Below, in pieces: positions 1 through 61,631 of a stretch of 64,000 nucleotides of DNA. The DNA is taken from the NCBI RefSeq assembly GCF_016862575.1, contig NZ_BONF01000012.1:124001-188000 (forward strand), read 5' to 3'. The number at the start of each line of letters is the position of its first letter. Within the stretch, counting starts at the first letter, position 1. A program made the position numbers and the translations under genes. The stretch is from Catellatospora bangladeshensis. GTDB taxonomy: Bacteria > Actinomycetota > Actinomycetes > Mycobacteriales > Micromonosporaceae. The notes below the pieces were generated by a model. It saw only the letters and a list, made by a program, of their open reading frames with translations, ran no database searches and was not told the origin of the DNA.

Positions 1-2
1 CC

Positions 3-308
3 TCGGCCCTGTTCGCCGCCCCGTCGACCTGGCACGACGTGCTGCCCACGGTGATCATCGAGGCGCTGGCGTCCGGCCGTCCCGTCATCGGCACCACGCT
101 GGGCGGCATCCCGTACCTGATCGACACCGCCGGTTTCGCCGTCCCGCCCACCGCCGAGGACTGGGCCGCCGCCCTCCCCGACGCCCTCAAGGCGGCCCCC
201 ACCCTCTCCGACACGGCCCGCCGCCGCTACGAACAGACCTTCCACCCCGACGTCGTCACGTCAAAACTCCTCGCCGTCTACGACTCCCTCCGCCGCCGCC
301 CCGCTTGA
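3..308 (+). CDS. Glycosyltransferase family 4 (GT-B), C-terminal fragment
   Basis: The reading frame is open from the left edge of the window, so only the last 101 residues are present. They carry the nucleotide-sugar binding end of a GT-B retaining glycosyltransferase: a PSTWHDVLPTVIIEALASG segment holding the E-x7-E type loop, followed by GRPVIGT and GGIPYLI. This is the usual signature of family 4 enzymes that transfer sugars from NDP donors to lipid, glycan or small-molecule acceptors. Acceptor and product cannot be told from the fragment. The stop codon lies inside the 75-bp palindromic repeat that separates this gene from the convergent ATPase gene. Confidence 0.85.
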   Translation, partial: SALFAAPSTWHDVLPTVIIEALASGRPVIGTTLGGIPYLIDTAGFAVPPTAEDWAAALPDALKAAPTLSDTARRRYEQTFHPDVVTSKLLAVYDSLRRRPA

Positions 309-381
309 TCGTCGGACTTGCCAGGCACCTGGGCGTATCTTGACCCGCCATTCGCCCATCTGCCTGGCAAGTCGAACGATC
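307..381. repeat. 75-bp GATC-bounded palindromic element, copy 1
   Basis: The element begins GATCGTCGGACTTGCCAGGC and ends GCCTGGCAAGTCGAACGATC, so its ends are inverted repeats of about 20 bp with two mismatches. A near-identical copy in the opposite orientation lies at 53608-53682. It fills the gap between two convergent genes and overlaps both stop codons (306-308 on plus, 380-382 on minus). It may act as a bidirectional terminator, but its sequence conservation at a distance suggests a REP/MITE-like repeat. Confidence 0.85.
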
Positions 382-1828
382 AAGAAGGGTCGGCGTACAG
401 CGCCGGGAGATCGACCAGGAGGACGCCTTCGGCGTTCGCGACCTTACGTAGCTCGTCGGTGAAGCCGGCGCCGCTGTAGCAGGCGAGCCGGGTGCGGGCG
501 ACACGGTGCCCCTTGGCGGCGAGCAGATCGCGTGCGCGGCGGAGCCGGTCCAGGTGTGCGATGCCCATCGTCTGCCGCCACTTCGCCTCGCCCAGTGACA
601 GCACCGCTCCATCGGTGCCGAGCACCGCGACGTCGATCTGGATCTGGGTACGTGCGGCCTGGTCGGCGACGGTGCCCGCCGCGACCGTGCTCGGTGGCTC
701 GCCGAACAGGGTGTACGCGTTGCGCAGCGCGAACTCCCGGCACAGCTGCTCGAAGTGGGGTCCGACCACCTGGGCCCGGAAGGTCTCCTGCCCGGCCTGC
801 CAGGCCTGCTCGGCCATTCCGCGCTCCAGGAAACTCCAGTTGCGGCGCATGACCGCCGAGTAGAACGTGATCAACGGCTCGGCGATCCGGTAGGTGGATC
901 TGCCGGTCCGGAATGCGTCCGGCTCCTTGGCGACCAGGCCGCAGTCCTCCAGCACGGTCAGCGGGTGCCCGATGTTCGTGGAGGGCCGCTCCAGGTAACC
1001 CGCGATGCCGCCACGGGTGTTGTGGCCGAGCGCGATGGCGCCGAGCACCCCGTGATACAGCGGGGTGTCCCGGGCTCCGGTCTCCTCCGCGAGCAGGTAT
1101 CGCGCCTCCCGGAACAGCGGGACCGCCGGGTTCAGCACGGTGCGGATCACCCAGGAGTCGAAATCGCCGAGGCCCGCCGGAGCGTCGGAGTGGACGAACT
1201 CGTGACGGTAGGCCGGGGTGCCGCCGACGATGCTGTGCAGGAGAACCGCCAGCTCAGGCTGGTCGGCCACCCCCCAGAACTCGGCGGCCGTGCGGTAGTC
1301 CATGGGCGGCACGACCAGTTCCAGGCTGGCACGCCCTCGTAGTGGGGCGTTGCCCGCCAGCAGGTTGCCCATCACGGCCATGGCCGAGCCGCAGACCAGC
1401 AGCTTGGATGACGTCTCTCGGGCCACTCCGCCGGGGTCGAGCACGTGCTGGAGCTGGGAGGCGAGAGAGGGGCTGGCCGACAGCAGGTAGGGAAGCTCGT
1501 CGATGATGATCAGCCCATCCGGCACCACCGCGTACAGCCGTCGCAGCGCCTCCTCCCAGCTGTGCAGCTCGAACGCGCCGCCGGTGCCGGCGCGGGCTGC
1601 CAGCGCCCGCCCGAAACGGCGCAGCGACTCCAGCTCGGTGTCCTCGGTAGCCGCGAAGTAGAAGCCGTCGGTGGCTCGGGCCAGCGCATCCAGCAGGAAG
1701 GTCTTCCCCTGGCGGCGTCGCCCGCTGACCACCCCGAACCTCGCACTGGCCGCGGGGGACGTCGCGAACCTCGCGAGCGCCTCCCACTCGGCATGGCGAT
1801 CGAACACGGCTTCAGGCTTGGCAAGCAT
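380..1828 (-). CDS. AAA-family ATPase with C-terminal PD-(D/E)xK-like domain (DUF234 type)
   Basis: The protein is about 482 residues. The N-terminal P-loop ATPase has Walker A GRRRQGKT (residues 36-43) and Walker B LIIIDELPYL (from 106). After a helical, winged-helix-like middle, the last 90 residues contain IDVAVLGTDGAVLSLGEAKW, with D399, E414 and K416 matching the D...ExK layout of restriction-endonuclease-like folds. This architecture is known from archaeal-type ATPase/DUF234 proteins, whose function is largely unknown. I chose the ATG at 1828 because the alignable protein starts MLAKPEAVFDR and the upstream frame runs through repeats. It has no partner gene in the same operon. A set of 15-bp repeats sits directly upstream. 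Confidence 0.8.
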   Translation of the reverse strand: MLAKPEAVFDRHAEWEALARFATSPAASARFGVVSGRRRQGKTFLLDALARATDGFYFAATEDTELESLRRFGRALAARAGTGGAFELHSWEEALRRLYAVVPDGLIIIDELPYLLSASPSLASQLQHVLDPGGVARETSSKLLVCGSAMAVMGNLLAGNAPLRGRASLELVVPPMDYRTAAEFWGVADQPELAVLLHSIVGGTPAYRHEFVHSDAPAGLGDFDSWVIRTVLNPAVPLFREARYLLAEETGARDTPLYHGVLGAIALGHNTRGGIAGYLERPSTNIGHPLTVLEDCGLVAKEPDAFRTGRSTYRIAEPLITFYSAVMRRNWSFLERGMAEQAWQAGQETFRAQVVGPHFEQLCREFALRNAYTLFGEPPSTVAAGTVADQAARTQIQIDVAVLGTDGAVLSLGEAKWRQTMGIAHLDRLRRARDLLAAKGHRVARTRLACYSGAGFTDELRKVANAEGVLLVDLPALYADPS

Positions 1829-1832
1829 ACGT

Positions 1833-1877
1833 AGAACTATAGTTCTTAGAACTACACCTCTAAGAACTACGCCTCTA
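1833..1877 (-). promoter_or_regulatory. Three tandem 15-bp repeats, probable operator of the ATPase gene
   Basis: Three back-to-back 15-bp units start with AGAACTA at 1833, 1848 and 1863. Units 2 and 3 differ at one base (AGAACTACACCTCTA and AGAACTACGCCTCTA). Unit 1 contains a perfect 14-bp palindrome AGAACTATAGTTCT, and AGTTCTTAGAACT (1841-1853) joins units 1 and 2. The block ends 5 bp before the ATG, leaving no room for a normal leader, so it probably overlaps the promoter and is bound by a repressor, possibly the protein itself. Confidence 0.6.
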
Positions 1878-1902
1878 ACGAACCGGCACCGGTGCGCAGC
1901 CC

Positions 1903-1964
1903 CGCAGTTTCGGGGAAAGTGCGCTCTAGGGAGCGCGCGAAGCCGCAGTTTCTCTGAAACTGCG
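1903..1964 (-). terminator. Stem-loop cluster after the CDP-alcohol operon
   Basis: Three hairpins lie in 62 bp: CGCAGTTTC with GGAAAGTGCG (one mismatch), GCGCTC-TAGG-GAGCGC at 1921-1936, and a perfect CGCAGTTTC-TCT-GAAACTGCG at 1944-1964. They follow the last gene of the upstream operon on the minus strand and probably end its transcript. The repeated CGCAGTTTC half-site hints at a dispersed repeat. No U-tract is present. Confidence 0.5.
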
Positions 1965-1988
1965 CCCACAGCAGCGCGGGCACGGCCG

Positions 1989-2693
1989 TCAGGAGCGGTA
2001 GGCGGTGCGCGCGGTGAAGGCGATGCTGGCCAGGAGGAAGCCGAAGTTCACGACGGTGAAGGCGGCGATGAACCAGATCGTCAGGGCGGGCGCGAGGGTG
2101 AGCACCAGTCCTGCCACGAAGATGACCGCGCCGTAGTCGCGGACCAGCTTGACCAGGCGGACCGGCAGCGAGGTCGAGGTGACCATCGAGGCGGCCTTGT
2201 CGCTGGTGGCCAGGACGCTGGTGACGAGGTTGACCATCCACGAGCCGGCGAACAGCGCGCCCAGCCACAGCGGCGGGCGGCCGATCGCCACCAGCGCGGT
2301 GACCAGCAGGATCTGCGAGGCCACGTCGCACAGGATGTCGATGCGGGCTCCGGCCAGGCTGCCCTGCCCGGTCACCCGGGCGAGCTGCCCGTCCGCGCAG
2401 TCGAGGGCGTAGGCAAACTGCCAGCCCAGCAGCGCGAGCAGCCCATACGCGGGCGTGATCGCATCCGTGCCGTCCTGCGCGCGCAGCACCAAGACCGTCG
2501 ACACCGCGATGCCGAGCAACAGGTTGATCAGGGTGAGCGTGGTCGGCTTCGTGCCGGTGCGCGAAGCGACCAGGGCGATCACCGCGCCGATGCGCTGGCT
2601 GAGGGCCTCGGAGAACAGCCCGCCGCCCCGGTTCACCGCGTAGAAGTCGGCGACACCGGGGCGGTGCGGGGTCAGCGTGTCAGTGGACGGCAT
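1989..2693 (-). CDS. CDP-alcohol phosphatidyltransferase family membrane enzyme
   Basis: The 234-residue protein has about six predicted membrane helices and the complete catalytic signature DGxxARx8GxxxDxxxD: D101-G102, A105-R106, G115, D119 and D123. Members of this family displace CMP from a CDP-activated alcohol with a second alcohol, forming a phosphodiester. The start overlaps the end of the dehydrogenase gene by 14 bp, so it is the last gene of a translationally coupled three-gene operon with a nucleotidyltransferase. The company suggests that the CDP donor is made by the operon's own enzymes rather than being CDP-diacylglycerol. This is inference; a normal phospholipid synthase role is not excluded. 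Confidence 0.85.
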   Translation of the reverse strand: MPSTDTLTPHRPGVADFYAVNRGGGLFSEALSQRIGAVIALVASRTGTKPTTLTLINLLLGIAVSTVLVLRAQDGTDAITPAYGLLALLGWQFAYALDCADGQLARVTGQGSLAGARIDILCDVASQILLVTALVAIGRPPLWLGALFAGSWMVNLVTSVLATSDKAASMVTSTSLPVRLVKLVRDYGAVIFVAGLVLTLAPALTIWFIAAFTVVNFGFLLASIAFTARTAYRS

Positions 2694-10969: not shown

Positions 10970-11005
10970 CCCACCCCACTCCCCGGGGTGCTGCAAGATC
11001 GCGAC

Positions 11006-11072
11006 GATCTTGCGTGAACTGTTAGGGATATGACCGCTTTGTGCGTGTCGCACCCACAGTCCGCGCAAGATC
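11006..11072. repeat. About 67-bp GATC-bounded palindromic element, copy A
   Basis: The element opens CGACGATCTTGCG and closes CGCAAGATCGTCG, with ACTGT/ACAGT forming an inner pair of arms. An extra GCAAGATCG-CGA-CGATCTTGC palindrome sits at its left end. A divergent copy in reverse orientation lies at 31953-32020. It is intergenic, between a hypothetical gene and the response regulator. Confidence 0.75.
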
Positions 11073-11121
11073 GTCGCACTTTTGGGGGCTGGGGCTTACG
11101 TGGCTCGTACATGAGGCCGAG

Positions 11122-13820: not shown

Positions 13821-13869
13821 AAGGAAGGGCACCTTCTTAACGAATATGGTTAATAAGGTGCCCTTCCTT
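13821..13869. terminator. GGGCACCTT-family hairpin, copy 2
   Basis: A perfect 15-bp stem AAGGAAGGGCACCTT / AAGGTGCCCTTCCTT closes a 19-nt loop and runs into TTTCT on the plus strand, 6 bp after the lipoprotein stop. It is a strong intrinsic terminator and a member of the dispersed repeat family. Confidence 0.85.
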
Positions 13870-53607: not shown

Positions 53608-53682
53608 GATCGTCGAACTTGCCAGGCAGATGGGCGAATGGCGGGTCAAGATACGCCCGGGTGCCTGGCAAGTTGGACGATC
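53608..53682. repeat. 75-bp GATC-bounded palindromic element, copy 2
   Basis: It is the reverse complement of copy 1 (307-381) with only a few differences. It has arms GATCGTCGAACTTGCCAGGC and GCCTGGCAAGTTGGACGATC around the same unique middle (GGGCGAATGGCGGGTCAAGA). It lies between the leuA leader and the lipoprotein gene. Confidence 0.85.
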
Positions 53683-53687
53683 TTGGC

Positions 53688-53707
53688 GGACGGACGGACG
53701 GACGGAC
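53688..53707. repeat. GGAC tandem repeat (5 units)
   Basis: Five exact GGAC units, followed at once by CGGG units (to about 53730), just before the lipoprotein stop. It is a likely replication-slippage site. Confidence 0.8.
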
Positions 53708-53731
53708 AGGCGGGCGGGCGGGCCGGGCGGA

Positions 53732-54526
53732 TCAGGGCTTGGCTGACGGGGAGGCGGATGCGCTGGCCGAGGGCTTCGGCGACGGCGGGGCGGTCAGCGG
53801 GAGCGGCTGGCCGGGGACCACCGGGCCGGGCAGCGAGACGCTCGGCGGGGCGAGGCCCGGCGTGCCCTCCAGCAGCAGCGTGCCGAAGGCGACCTTGGCC
53901 GCGGTCAGCGTGCCGTCGGCCTCGTAGCAGTAGATGCCCGCGTCGAGCGGCAGTTTGAGGCTGGCCGCCGAGGACTCCACCGCGTAGCACTTCCCGCGCG
54001 CCCCGGGCAGCGGCGCCGCGTCGGCCACGGCCAGCGCCAGCCGCCGGTCGGTGAGCATGTTCTGCCAGTCGGTGATCAGGTGCTGCACCTTCACGTCGGC
54101 CTTGCCGGGCAGCGCGCCGGGCACCTTCACGCAGCCCGAGTACGGGTGGTTGCCCGCGGCCAGGGCGCACTGGTGCAGCGCGCCCCCGGTGAAGACCAGC
54201 GCGATGTCGACCGCGCCGCTGTGCGCGCCGCCGGGCACGTCGACGCGCCAGGTCCCGTCGAGCGCGCGGGTGACGGTCACCCGGCGGTCGGGCCGCTTCG
54301 GGCTCTTGAACGTGTACAGCGCCACCTGCCGCAGGTCCTTCGCGGCCGCGGCGCGCGCGGCGAGCTGCGCCCGTGGCTCGGCCGGCTCGGCGGCCGCGGC
54401 GCTGACCGGCGGGGCGGACGTCGGCGCCGCCTCCGGAGCCGCGTCGCCGCAGGCGGACAGCGCCCAGCAGGCGGCGATCAGGGAGGAGACGGTGAGGACG
54501 GCCCGGCGCACGCGCCCATTCTTCAC
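53732..54526 (-). CDS. Putative lipoprotein
   Basis: The 264-residue protein has a signal peptide with lipobox LSAC (Cys about 26), an Ala/Pro linker, then an unrecognised domain with six Cys (including HQCALAAG, SGCVKVPG, GKCYAVES, GIYCYEADG). It ends in a Ser/Ala/Pro tail ([16 protein letters not shown]). The phrase LDGTWRVDVPGGAHSGAVDIAL suggests a beta-rich fold. The GTG at 54526 (VKNGRVRRAVL) is the best start; upstream open frame has poor codon quality. It is divergent from lysC. Function is unknown. Confidence 0.7.
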   Translation of the reverse strand: MKNGRVRRAVLTVSSLIAACWALSACGDAAPEAAPTSAPPVSAAAAEPAEPRAQLAARAAAAKDLRQVALYTFKSPKRPDRRVTVTRALDGTWRVDVPGGAHSGAVDIALVFTGGALHQCALAAGNHPYSGCVKVPGALPGKADVKVQHLITDWQNMLTDRRLALAVADAAPLPGARGKCYAVESSAASLKLPLDAGIYCYEADGTLTAAKVAFGTLLLEGTPGLAPPSVSLPGPVVPGQPLPLTAPPSPKPSASASASPSAKP

Positions 54527-54809
54527 CGCGCCACGCCGTTCCCCGTCCCGACGCGCCCCAGGGTTACGCAAGATCGCAGGATACGCAGCCAACTCACAGA
54601 GTGTGGCGCGTGTCACACACATGAAATTCCTACGGCGGTGATGGGCGGCGCGCGGGTGTCTGCGCGGCAGCGGAAGGCGTTCGGCAAAGGATCTCGGAAA
54701 TCCCCGGGCCCGGCGCCCGAGTGCTGGGATCGACCCGCGATCGGCTGCCCGGCCCGCCGCTAAGCTGACTCCGTCCTTAAGTACCTGAGGTTGAGAGGAG
54801 CCGGCAACC

Positions 54810-56075
<1,266 letters not shown>

Positions 56076-57322: not shown

Positions 57323-57366
57323 ATGGTGGGCCGCCCGAGGTGGGAGCACGGCCGGGAGTGGGTGAT

Positions 57367-57427
57367 GATCGCGATTTCGTGTCGAAAAGTGTGCTCTGAG
57401 CGCAGGTTTGGACACGAACTAGCGATC
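57367..57427. repeat. 61-bp GATC-bounded palindromic element, copy 3
   Basis: It starts GATCGCGATTTCGTGTCG and ends GGACACGAACTAGCGATC. Same length and orientation as the copy 45 bp upstream. Confidence 0.8.
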
Positions 57428-57430
57428 TTC

Positions 57431-57472
57431 AGCCGCGAGCCGCGAGCCGCGAGCCGCGAGCCGCGAGCCGCG
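57431..57472. repeat. 7-bp tandem repeat AGCCGCG, 6 copies
   Basis: Six perfect AGCCGCG units run without gap, then AGCTGAG. The array lies 4 bp after a 61-bp element and 63 bp from the GGDEF gene's stop. The heptamer is out of helical phase, so it is more likely slippage than an operator array. Confidence 0.9.
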
Positions 57473-60755: not shown

Positions 60756-61631
60756 TCAGCGTGGGATGAGTGTCAGCAGGCTCGCCTCGGGCCGGCAGGC
60801 GAAGCGCACCGGGGCGGTCGGGTGGGTGCCCAGCCCGGCCGACACGTGCAGCCAGGCCCGGCCCCAGCGGTGCAGCCCGCGGGCCAGCTTCCGGTCCAGG
60901 CCGCAGTTGGTGACCAGCGCGCCGACGCCCGGCACGCGCACCTGCCCGCCGTGCGTGTGCCCGGCCAGCAGCAGCTCGAACCCGTCGGCGGCGAACGCGT
61001 CGAGCACCCGCGGCTCGGGGGCGTGGCTGAGCGCGATGCGCACGGCGGCGGTCCGGTCGGCGGGGCCGGCCGGGTACACGTCGAGGCCGATGTGCGGGTC
61101 GTCGACGCCGGCCAGGTCGATCACGCGGCCGCCGGCCTTGAGCGTGGCGCGGCTGTTGTTGAGGTCGGCCCAGCCCGCGGCGAGGAAGGCCGCGCGCAGG
61201 TCCTCGAAGGGCAGGTCGACACCGTGCTGGTACTCCCGGTCGTCGCGGAAGTAGCTGAACGGGCTCTTCAGCACGGGGCCGGTGTAGTCGTTGGAGCCGA
61301 AGACGAAGGCGCCGGGCAGCTCCAGCAGCGGCTCGTACGCGGCGAGCACGCCGGGCACCGCGTCCGGGTGGGCCATGTTGTCGCCGGTGACCACGACCAG
61401 GTCCGGGTCGAGGCCGGCCAGCTCCCGCACCCAGCGCTGCTTGCGCCGCTGGTTCGGGGTCAGGTGCAGGTCGGACAGGTGCAGCACGCGCAGCGGCTCG
61501 GCCTCGGGGGCCAGCAGCGGCACGTCGTACCGGCGGAGCGTGAACATGTTGCGTTCCACGAGCGTGCCGTACGCCAGCGTGCCGGCGCCCACCGCGATCG
61601 TGGCCAACGCGATTTTCCCGAGCGGACCCAT
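60756..61631 (-). CDS. Calcineurin-like metallophosphoesterase, membrane-linked
   Basis: The 291-residue protein has an N-terminal hydrophobic segment (GPLGKIALATIAVGAGTLAY) and a full metallophosphoesterase core: HLSDLHL (D-x-H), VVVTGDNM (GD), VFGSNDY in place of the classical GNH[DE], ALSHAPEP and AGHTHGGQVR (GHxH). YkuE-like enzymes of this class hydrolyse UDP-diacylglucosamine or other phosphoesters; the GSND variant is frequent in Actinobacteria. The substrate is unknown. The ATG at 61631 is the start; it diverges from the YqeY gene. Confidence 0.88.
   Translation of the reverse strand: MGPLGKIALATIAVGAGTLAYGTLVERNMFTLRRYDVPLLAPEAEPLRVLHLSDLHLTPNQRRKQRWVRELAGLDPDLVVVTGDNMAHPDAVPGVLAAYEPLLELPGAFVFGSNDYTGPVLKSPFSYFRDDREYQHGVDLPFEDLRAAFLAAGWADLNNSRATLKAGGRVIDLAGVDDPHIGLDVYPAGPADRTAAVRIALSHAPEPRVLDAFAADGFELLLAGHTHGGQVRVPGVGALVTNCGLDRKLARGLHRWGRAWLHVSAGLGTHPTAPVRFACRPEASLLTLIPR

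Follow-up and report, generated by a model that had tools for sequence, protein, structure and literature searches.

The 75-bp element that occurs twice in the window (the whole 64-kb stretch of Catellatospora bangladeshensis DNA analysed here) belongs to a real, genus-specific family of REPIN-like repeats, which we designate family A; its copies are concentrated downstream of genes, and no RAYT is detectable in the genome that carries the window. As an explanation, we favour a RAYT-less REPIN-like repeat that was probably spread by some other machinery and is used as a 3'-end hairpin; judged from sequence comparison, we hold the chances of this reading being right or wrong to be about equal. 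The genomes compared are the source genome of the window (G000, the own genome) and ten other Catellatospora genomes (G001 to G010).

The two copies in the window correspond closely to what had been described. Both are exactly 75 bp long, start with GATCGT and end with ACGATC, and they share 92% identity. Their asymmetric loop, TATCTTG, lies on the forward strand in copy 1 (307..381) and on the reverse strand in copy 2 (53608..53682), which confirms the opposite orientation initially proposed. Copy 1 is situated between convergent genes and does overlap both of their stop codons: its left terminal box WWGATC (TTGATC, 305..310, forward strand) gives the TGA (306-308) of a forward-strand glycosyltransferase gene, and its right terminal box GATCWW (GATCAA, 378..383, forward strand) gives the stop (380-382) of a reverse-strand ATPase gene. 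The left arm of this copy (315..335, forward strand) reads GACTTGCC-A-GGCA-CCT-GGGCG, that is, a palindromic core, TTGCCNGGCA, plus a GGGCG box; the right arm (353..373, reverse strand) is the same unit inverted. Copy 2 is intergenic, as reported, and lies 49 bp beyond the stop of the reverse-strand open reading frame 53732-55069. The simple gene caller had missed this open reading frame and had put the copy in the divergent class, but the DNA across it has a match of 97% in G007 and matches of 76 to 83% in nine genomes, and because of these matches in relatives copy 2 was read as lying past its stop. Directly after copy 2, at 53686-53725, short tandem repeats are found, (GGAC)n and then (GGGC)n.

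The RNA fold of positions 301-390 has a predicted energy of -54.8 kcal/mol (z = -7.85), and none of 200 shuffled sequences was as stable. From this z-score, from the pattern counts compared to a reversed control and from the palindromes compared to shuffled sequence (both given below), the 75-bp element is not a chance feature. A comparison of window positions 1-2000 with Rfam returned five matches, every one of them below the gathering score of its family.

The general pattern of the family, taken from 30 own-genome copies and 110 distinct copies from all loci examined, runs WWGATC, N4, GACTTGCC-N-GGCA, N3, GGGCG, TATCTTG and a variable stretch, followed in the right half by C(A/T)TTCGCCC and the inverted arm. 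It amounts to a repeat unit, WWGATC-N4-GACTTGCCNGGCA-N3-GGGCG, present in two inverted copies around the asymmetric loop. The arm core TTGCCNGGCA is nearly invariant, and element positions 22-24 are variable. The free base N17, opposite N59, is the centre of the dyad within the arm. Watson-Crick pairing between positions 17 and 59 is seen in 55% of copies, compared to 32% when the pairing is shuffled; for positions 22 and 54 the proportions are 0.51 and 0.32, and positions 22-24 pair with 52-54 in 36 to 66% of copies. These pairing rates point to an imperfect long stem and to arm cores that each form a nearly complete dyad. Co-variation was found for the pairs 9/67, 11/65, 17/59 and 22/54, although this signal is inflated by orthologs and by differences between clades.

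Arms occur almost always as doublets: 270 distinct arms were paired and 15 unpaired in the sequence examined (258 and 16, respectively, before duplicates were removed), and some of the 15 are chance matches in genes or have decayed partners. GATC was present at one end in all 30 aligned copies. Among 141 copies found with a pattern that did not include GATC, 124 had it at their left end and 118 at their right end, and in 90 it was bordered by WW on both sides.

A count over the whole genome gave far more than the two copies first described, and relatives carry the element as well. The own genome contains approximately 130 to 155 family A copies, within a range of 25 to 155 per genome across the 11 Catellatospora genomes; near-perfect palindromes may count on both strands, which makes these values slightly high. 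More precisely, a 55-bp pattern allowing up to three mismatches matched the own genome 130 times and each of the ten others 7 to 123 times, and its reversed-pattern control gave no match. With a slightly looser pattern, the 11 genomes yielded 155, 153, 130, 118, 117, 97, 95, 84, 77, 43 and 25 matches, the own genome being the richest. In the first search of this genome, 40 of 149 candidates were scored, and all 40 were copies. The looser pattern had no match in any of 289 genomes from 43 other genera of the same family, a similarity search (E <= 0.001) found family A in none of 30 genomes outside the genus, and viral contigs, plasmids and phages gave no family A match. Exact matches in named records amounted to four stretches, from Catellatospora sichuanensis (2), C. 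paridis and C. vulcania. We conclude that family A is genus-wide and, among the genomes searched, restricted to Catellatospora. The titles and abstract openings of the papers listed on palindromic or dispersed repeats, REPs and terminators of related bacteria contained nothing on these repeats (few subscription journals were covered, so this negative is weak), and the one Catellatospora paper retrieved on repeats and intergenic DNA concerned Ms1 RNA.

In layout and copy number, family A fits the REPINs, which are described as inverted doublets (PMC3116915), and REP-like repeats are explained there and in PMC2817692 chiefly by RAYT transposases. The preliminary description had suggested a REP/MITE-like element mobilised by such an enzyme. 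Its first half is borne out by the high copy number, the extragenic position, the inverted doublet of palindromic units that makes a hairpin, and the presence or absence of the element according to species; its second half is not supported. Pfam Y1_Tnp (PF01797, E <= 1e-5) had no match in five of the 11 Catellatospora genomes, the own genome included, and at the eight Y1 loci found in the other six, no family A copy was present within 1.5 kb; RAYT genes, for their part, are said to lie invariably between two inverted REPs (PMC2817692). The GTAG tag of REPs and REPINs is also absent, the ends of family A being GATC. We therefore hold mobilisation of these repeats by a RAYT (Y1 HUH) transposase to be very improbable; a variant in which the RAYT was lost after an ancient burst is still conceivable.

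In the limited sequence searched, neither a partner protein nor a longer autonomous copy was found. The genes between close element pairs are diverse, and those at the pairs of loci L281, L282, L283 and L285 include genes that we take to be IclR-type and DUF559-like. In G000, G002 and G008 the order is gene, element, gene, second element, with the DUF559-like gene enclosed by inverted family A copies. A partner gene located between close pairs was considered and rejected, as in G010 the two elements are kept but no gene was called in between.

Comparison with known systems places family A near several of them. Like the REPIN and REP-BIME repeats of Pseudomonas and enterobacteria, it is extragenic and present in high copy number, its two inverted palindromic units give a long hairpin, its doublets are far commoner than singlets, and its sequence classes are lineage-specific. 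Unlike them, besides having no Y1 match in the own genome and no GTAG tag, it resides in an actinobacterial genus, where at least seven stem families stand side by side and copies are found almost only downstream of genes. MITEs such as ERIC and NEMIS are short, intergenic and made of terminal inverted repeats over most of their length. Family A has these three properties, but no target-site duplication was seen and no autonomous relative was encountered in the sequence searched. In families A, C, D and F, no excess of direct repeats of 2 to 5 bp was seen relative to shuffled pairing, with the sole exception of a single 5-bp case in family D, and the empty sites of relatives differ from the filled ones by more than the element. 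CGTC-tagged REPs are described as palindromic, 20 to 40 bp long and apparently without a dedicated transposase (PMC3733652); family A shares the palindromic structure and the apparent lack of a transposase, but has another tag and is 75 bp long.

The position of the copies relative to genes was analysed for 133 distinct copies flanked by 900 bp or more of sequence on either side. Of these, 58 lay in convergent gaps, 70 in tandem gaps, 5 in divergent gaps and none in coding sequence, so that 128 of the 133 were in convergent or same-direction gaps; genes were taken from our own error-prone script and not from a standard program, and the sample is skewed to copies resembling copy 1, the search with which supplied many of the loci. 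The gene contexts of genome G014, of lower GC, were left out, since the caller gave 2% coding there. In tandem gaps, the upstream stop (at a median of 48 bp) was closer than the downstream start (114.5 bp) for 62 of the 70 copies, and the loop was oriented with the gene in 46 of the 70 (P = 0.012). No orientation bias by replichore was seen in G007 (35 of 74 copies).

A stable hairpin downstream of stop codons is a feature of intrinsic terminators. Family A resembles bidirectional ones in placing such a hairpin near both stops of convergent genes, and other hairpins tend to be absent there. In contrast to these terminators, it has no U-tract, the right flank of 137 copies being W, W and then G in 112, and it is a dispersed repeat whose very sequence is conserved beside unrelated genes. 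Several palindromes of family G have TTTT before and AAAA after them, which is opposite to the polarity that an intrinsic terminator has.

Convergent gaps with zero, one or two palindromes of any kind numbered 81, 81 and 5, where a Poisson distribution of the same mean would give approximately 97, 53 and 17; palindromes are thus more evenly spread over these gaps than expected. When the free length was matched to 30-150 bp, another hairpin was found in 8 of 40 convergent gaps containing a family palindrome compared to 40 of 73 without one (Fisher test, P = 3.5e-4), and in 0 of 20 tandem gaps compared to 49 of 256 (P = 0.03). An earlier, unmatched test went in the same direction. This suggests that family palindromes may stand in for ordinary terminator hairpins. 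That other hairpins replace them at orthologous sites is suggestive only, because 20 of 38 orthologous sites lacking family A had no hairpin (the other 18 had one of another kind), and because whether a convergent gap contains a palindrome is nearly independent of whether its ortholog in another species does: for G007 and G006, 12 gaps had a palindrome in neither genome, 12 and 8 in one only, and 12 in both.

If family A is indeed a RAYT-less repeat used at 3' ends, its copies would be propagated whole by way of the hairpin, and the machinery responsible, which would not be a RAYT, would recognise the core of the arms together with the WWGATC ends. Copies near stop codons would persist because transcripts would end at the hairpin, from either side where the genes converge; the element would thereby replace the ordinary terminator hairpin. 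The hairpin might act as a terminator that is U-tract-less or Rho-assisted, or it might block 3' exonucleases. Against a role at 3' ends stand the missing U-tract, the constraint on the core sequence beyond what pairing demands, and the hairpin-free majority (20 of 38) among sites without family A.

Comparison of orthologous sites shows that sites turn over between clades and that each clade has its own consensus. Starting from 29 own-genome sites, of which 1, 5, 7 and 8 were left out for G007, G006, G002 and G008, respectively, the element was present at the orthologous position in 25 of 28 G007 regions, 5 of 24 in G006, 5 of 22 in G002 and 2 of 21 in G008 (95 of 116 matches were used; the 21 weaker secondary ones were dropped, which removed site 16 of G002 and site 4 of G008). 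The comparison of empty sites, which had been proposed as a check, thus reveals presence or absence of the element according to species. At the site of copy 1, the element is common to G002, G003, G005, G006 and G007, and none was recognised in G001, G004, G008, G009 and G010. The site of copy 2 is shared with G007, and a degraded copy is present in G006.

A tree built on 1.3 kb beside copy 2 separates G000/G007, G001/2/3/5/6/10 and G004/8/9 with 98 to 100% support, and the variants of the repeat specific to each clade agree with this tree of the neighbouring gene: they are GGGCG in the first clade, GTGCG in the second, and TTGCCGGGCAATCGGGCG, altered on both arms, in the third. Among the matches listed (13 per genome), base 26 was T in 68 of 78 copies of the second clade, 1 of 26 of the first and 4 of 39 of the third. 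At nine old sites shared with G000, where the base is G, it was T in five, G in three and A in one.

At 24 sites shared by G000 and G007, 13 of 1,104 core positions had changed (1.2%) and 74 of 456 variable positions (46 core and 19 variable columns per copy, the core being set on G000 alone), and the aligned flanks differed by 10.5% over 2,494 bases. Since the core has changed so much less than the flanks, we conclude that family A copies are maintained; copies decayed by more than nine mismatches escape this count, yet only 3 of the 28 G007 regions were without an element. The site-specific variable bases are kept at these shared sites and the core is fixed. Where the two genomes differed on one side of the stem, the pair was formed only in G000 in 24 cases, only in G007 in 19, in both in 13 and in neither in 7. 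'Recent spread or selection', as initially put forward, is thus only partly right as regards recent spread, given the extent of sharing with the sister genome G007 and the conservation of the core there.

These data also bear on a purely selfish, RAYT-independent miniature element, tolerated at 3' ends without any host function and with its core kept by gene conversion. Such an element would agree with the clade-specific consensus, the large turnover between clades and the near independence of palindrome presence in the convergent gaps of G007 and G006; the distribution of T at base 26, including five of the nine old sites, looks like concerted change. The spacing of one palindrome per gap and the exclusion of other hairpins, however, would be unexpected for tolerated insertions, and frequent whole-copy conversion would erase the site-specific variable bases that survive at shared sites. 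We regard this explanation as rather doubtful.

Another possibility is a site acting at the DNA level, where a dimeric protein would bind the two arm cores, for example in organising or insulating the chromosome, and the hairpin would be a by-product of inverted sites. Constraint does track the boxes (GATC, TTGCCNGGCA and GGGCG-TATCTTG) more than it tracks pairing, a free base occupies the centre of the intra-arm dyad, and the sequence has changed on both arms in the G004/8/9 clade. Copies are moreover depleted near the terminus. In the complete G007 genome, dnaA lies at 1.435 Mb, which places the inferred terminus near 5.73 Mb, and only one of 74 zero-mismatch copies (out of 153 matches) was within 1 Mb of it, compared to 17.2 expected (P = 1e-7); for G002, the count was 4 of 42 compared to 9.4 expected (listed copies with at most two mismatches, contig 1). 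The nucleoid-occlusion sites of Noc and SlmA are likewise palindromic and depleted near the terminus. This depletion may, however, just follow the accessory-gene region. Furthermore, the position downstream of genes and the exclusion of other hairpins point to transcription, pairs 17/59 and 22/54 are Watson-Crick above the shuffled level, and no binding protein is known. We consider a DNA-level site unlikely, whether of the gyrase, the nucleoid-occlusion or the roadblock type.

At least seven recurrent stem families (A to G) were distinguished, family A among them. The window itself holds a family F palindrome (GACGATCTTGCGYGAAC, 10994..11084) between two same-strand genes and a family D palindrome (GATCGCGATTTCGTGTC, 57360..57434) between convergent genes. 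Three Catellatospora genomes gave 30, 42 and 38 strong palindromes per 400 kb, and block-shuffled controls gave none. Palindromes with a score of at least 17, a count that includes ordinary terminator-like hairpins, numbered 54, 65 and 52 in 400-kb blocks of G007, G006 and G008; of these, 29, 32 and 30 were in convergent gaps, 20, 30 and 19 in tandem gaps, 3, 1 and 1 in divergent gaps, and 2 each in coding sequence. Stretches of 100 kb from four other genera contained 4, 3, 0 and 1 strong palindromes, seven of the eight in convergent gaps.

S-WW outside the GATC ends is found in families A, C and D, less uniformly in F, and is absent in B, E and G; GATC was part of the search patterns for the ends of A, C, D and F, but is also visible in palindromes listed free of any pattern. 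Families A and E have a similar loop, ATCTTGAGC...ATTCG. Family D (GATCGNNNNYTCGTGTC ... GACACGARNNNNCGATC) had 274 matches per strand in G007; its pattern is symmetric, which means up to 274 places, above family A, so that this one genome carries approximately 153 family A matches in addition to as many as 274 family D places. We tentatively propose, as a possibility that falls well short of probable, an undescribed, non-RAYT repeat-spreading system in which one machinery would recognise the S-WW-GATC tips and would propagate several unrelated families (A, C and D, and F less uniformly) into the 3' ends of genes. Many terminators would be replaced in this way, and a large share of transcript ends would derive from repeats evolving in concert within each clade.

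Dense repeats of several families in one actinobacterial genus, whose copy-richest genome has no Y1 match, make the origin of such repeats comparable across eleven species. The eleven sequenced Catellatospora also allow concerted evolution and the possible take-over of transcript ends to be compared, and if the role at 3' ends is true, this would be a case of repeats supplying transcript ends genome-wide.

Some further observations concern the surroundings of copy 1 and other palindromes. The place orthologous to the reverse-strand ATPase-like gene (380-1969) has no DNA match to it in G001, G005, G007 and G010, and in G009 there is a fragment match only, although the flanking genes do match. 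In G005 and G007 the element of the copy 1 site is kept though no match to the ATPase gene adjoins it. Upstream of this gene (window 1832-1964), inverted repeats of the AGTTCTTAGAACTAC type lie at approximately 1835-1880, and an imperfect palindrome resembling family E (GCAGTTTCGGGGAAAGTGCGC ... GCAGTTTCTCTGAAACTGC) at approximately 1904-1964. A further recurrent palindrome, AAGGAAGGGCACCTTCTTAACG..., occupies window positions 13821-13869; similar ones were seen at site 25, in the gaps of G002 and G006, and in a genome of another genus (G020, block 61283-61339). Finally, a long palindrome of an additional family, H, differs from the other families in being present in the same divergent gap in G006 (L225, 12781-12894) and G008 (L257, 1097-1221); in G007, this gap is occupied by a family A palindrome instead.
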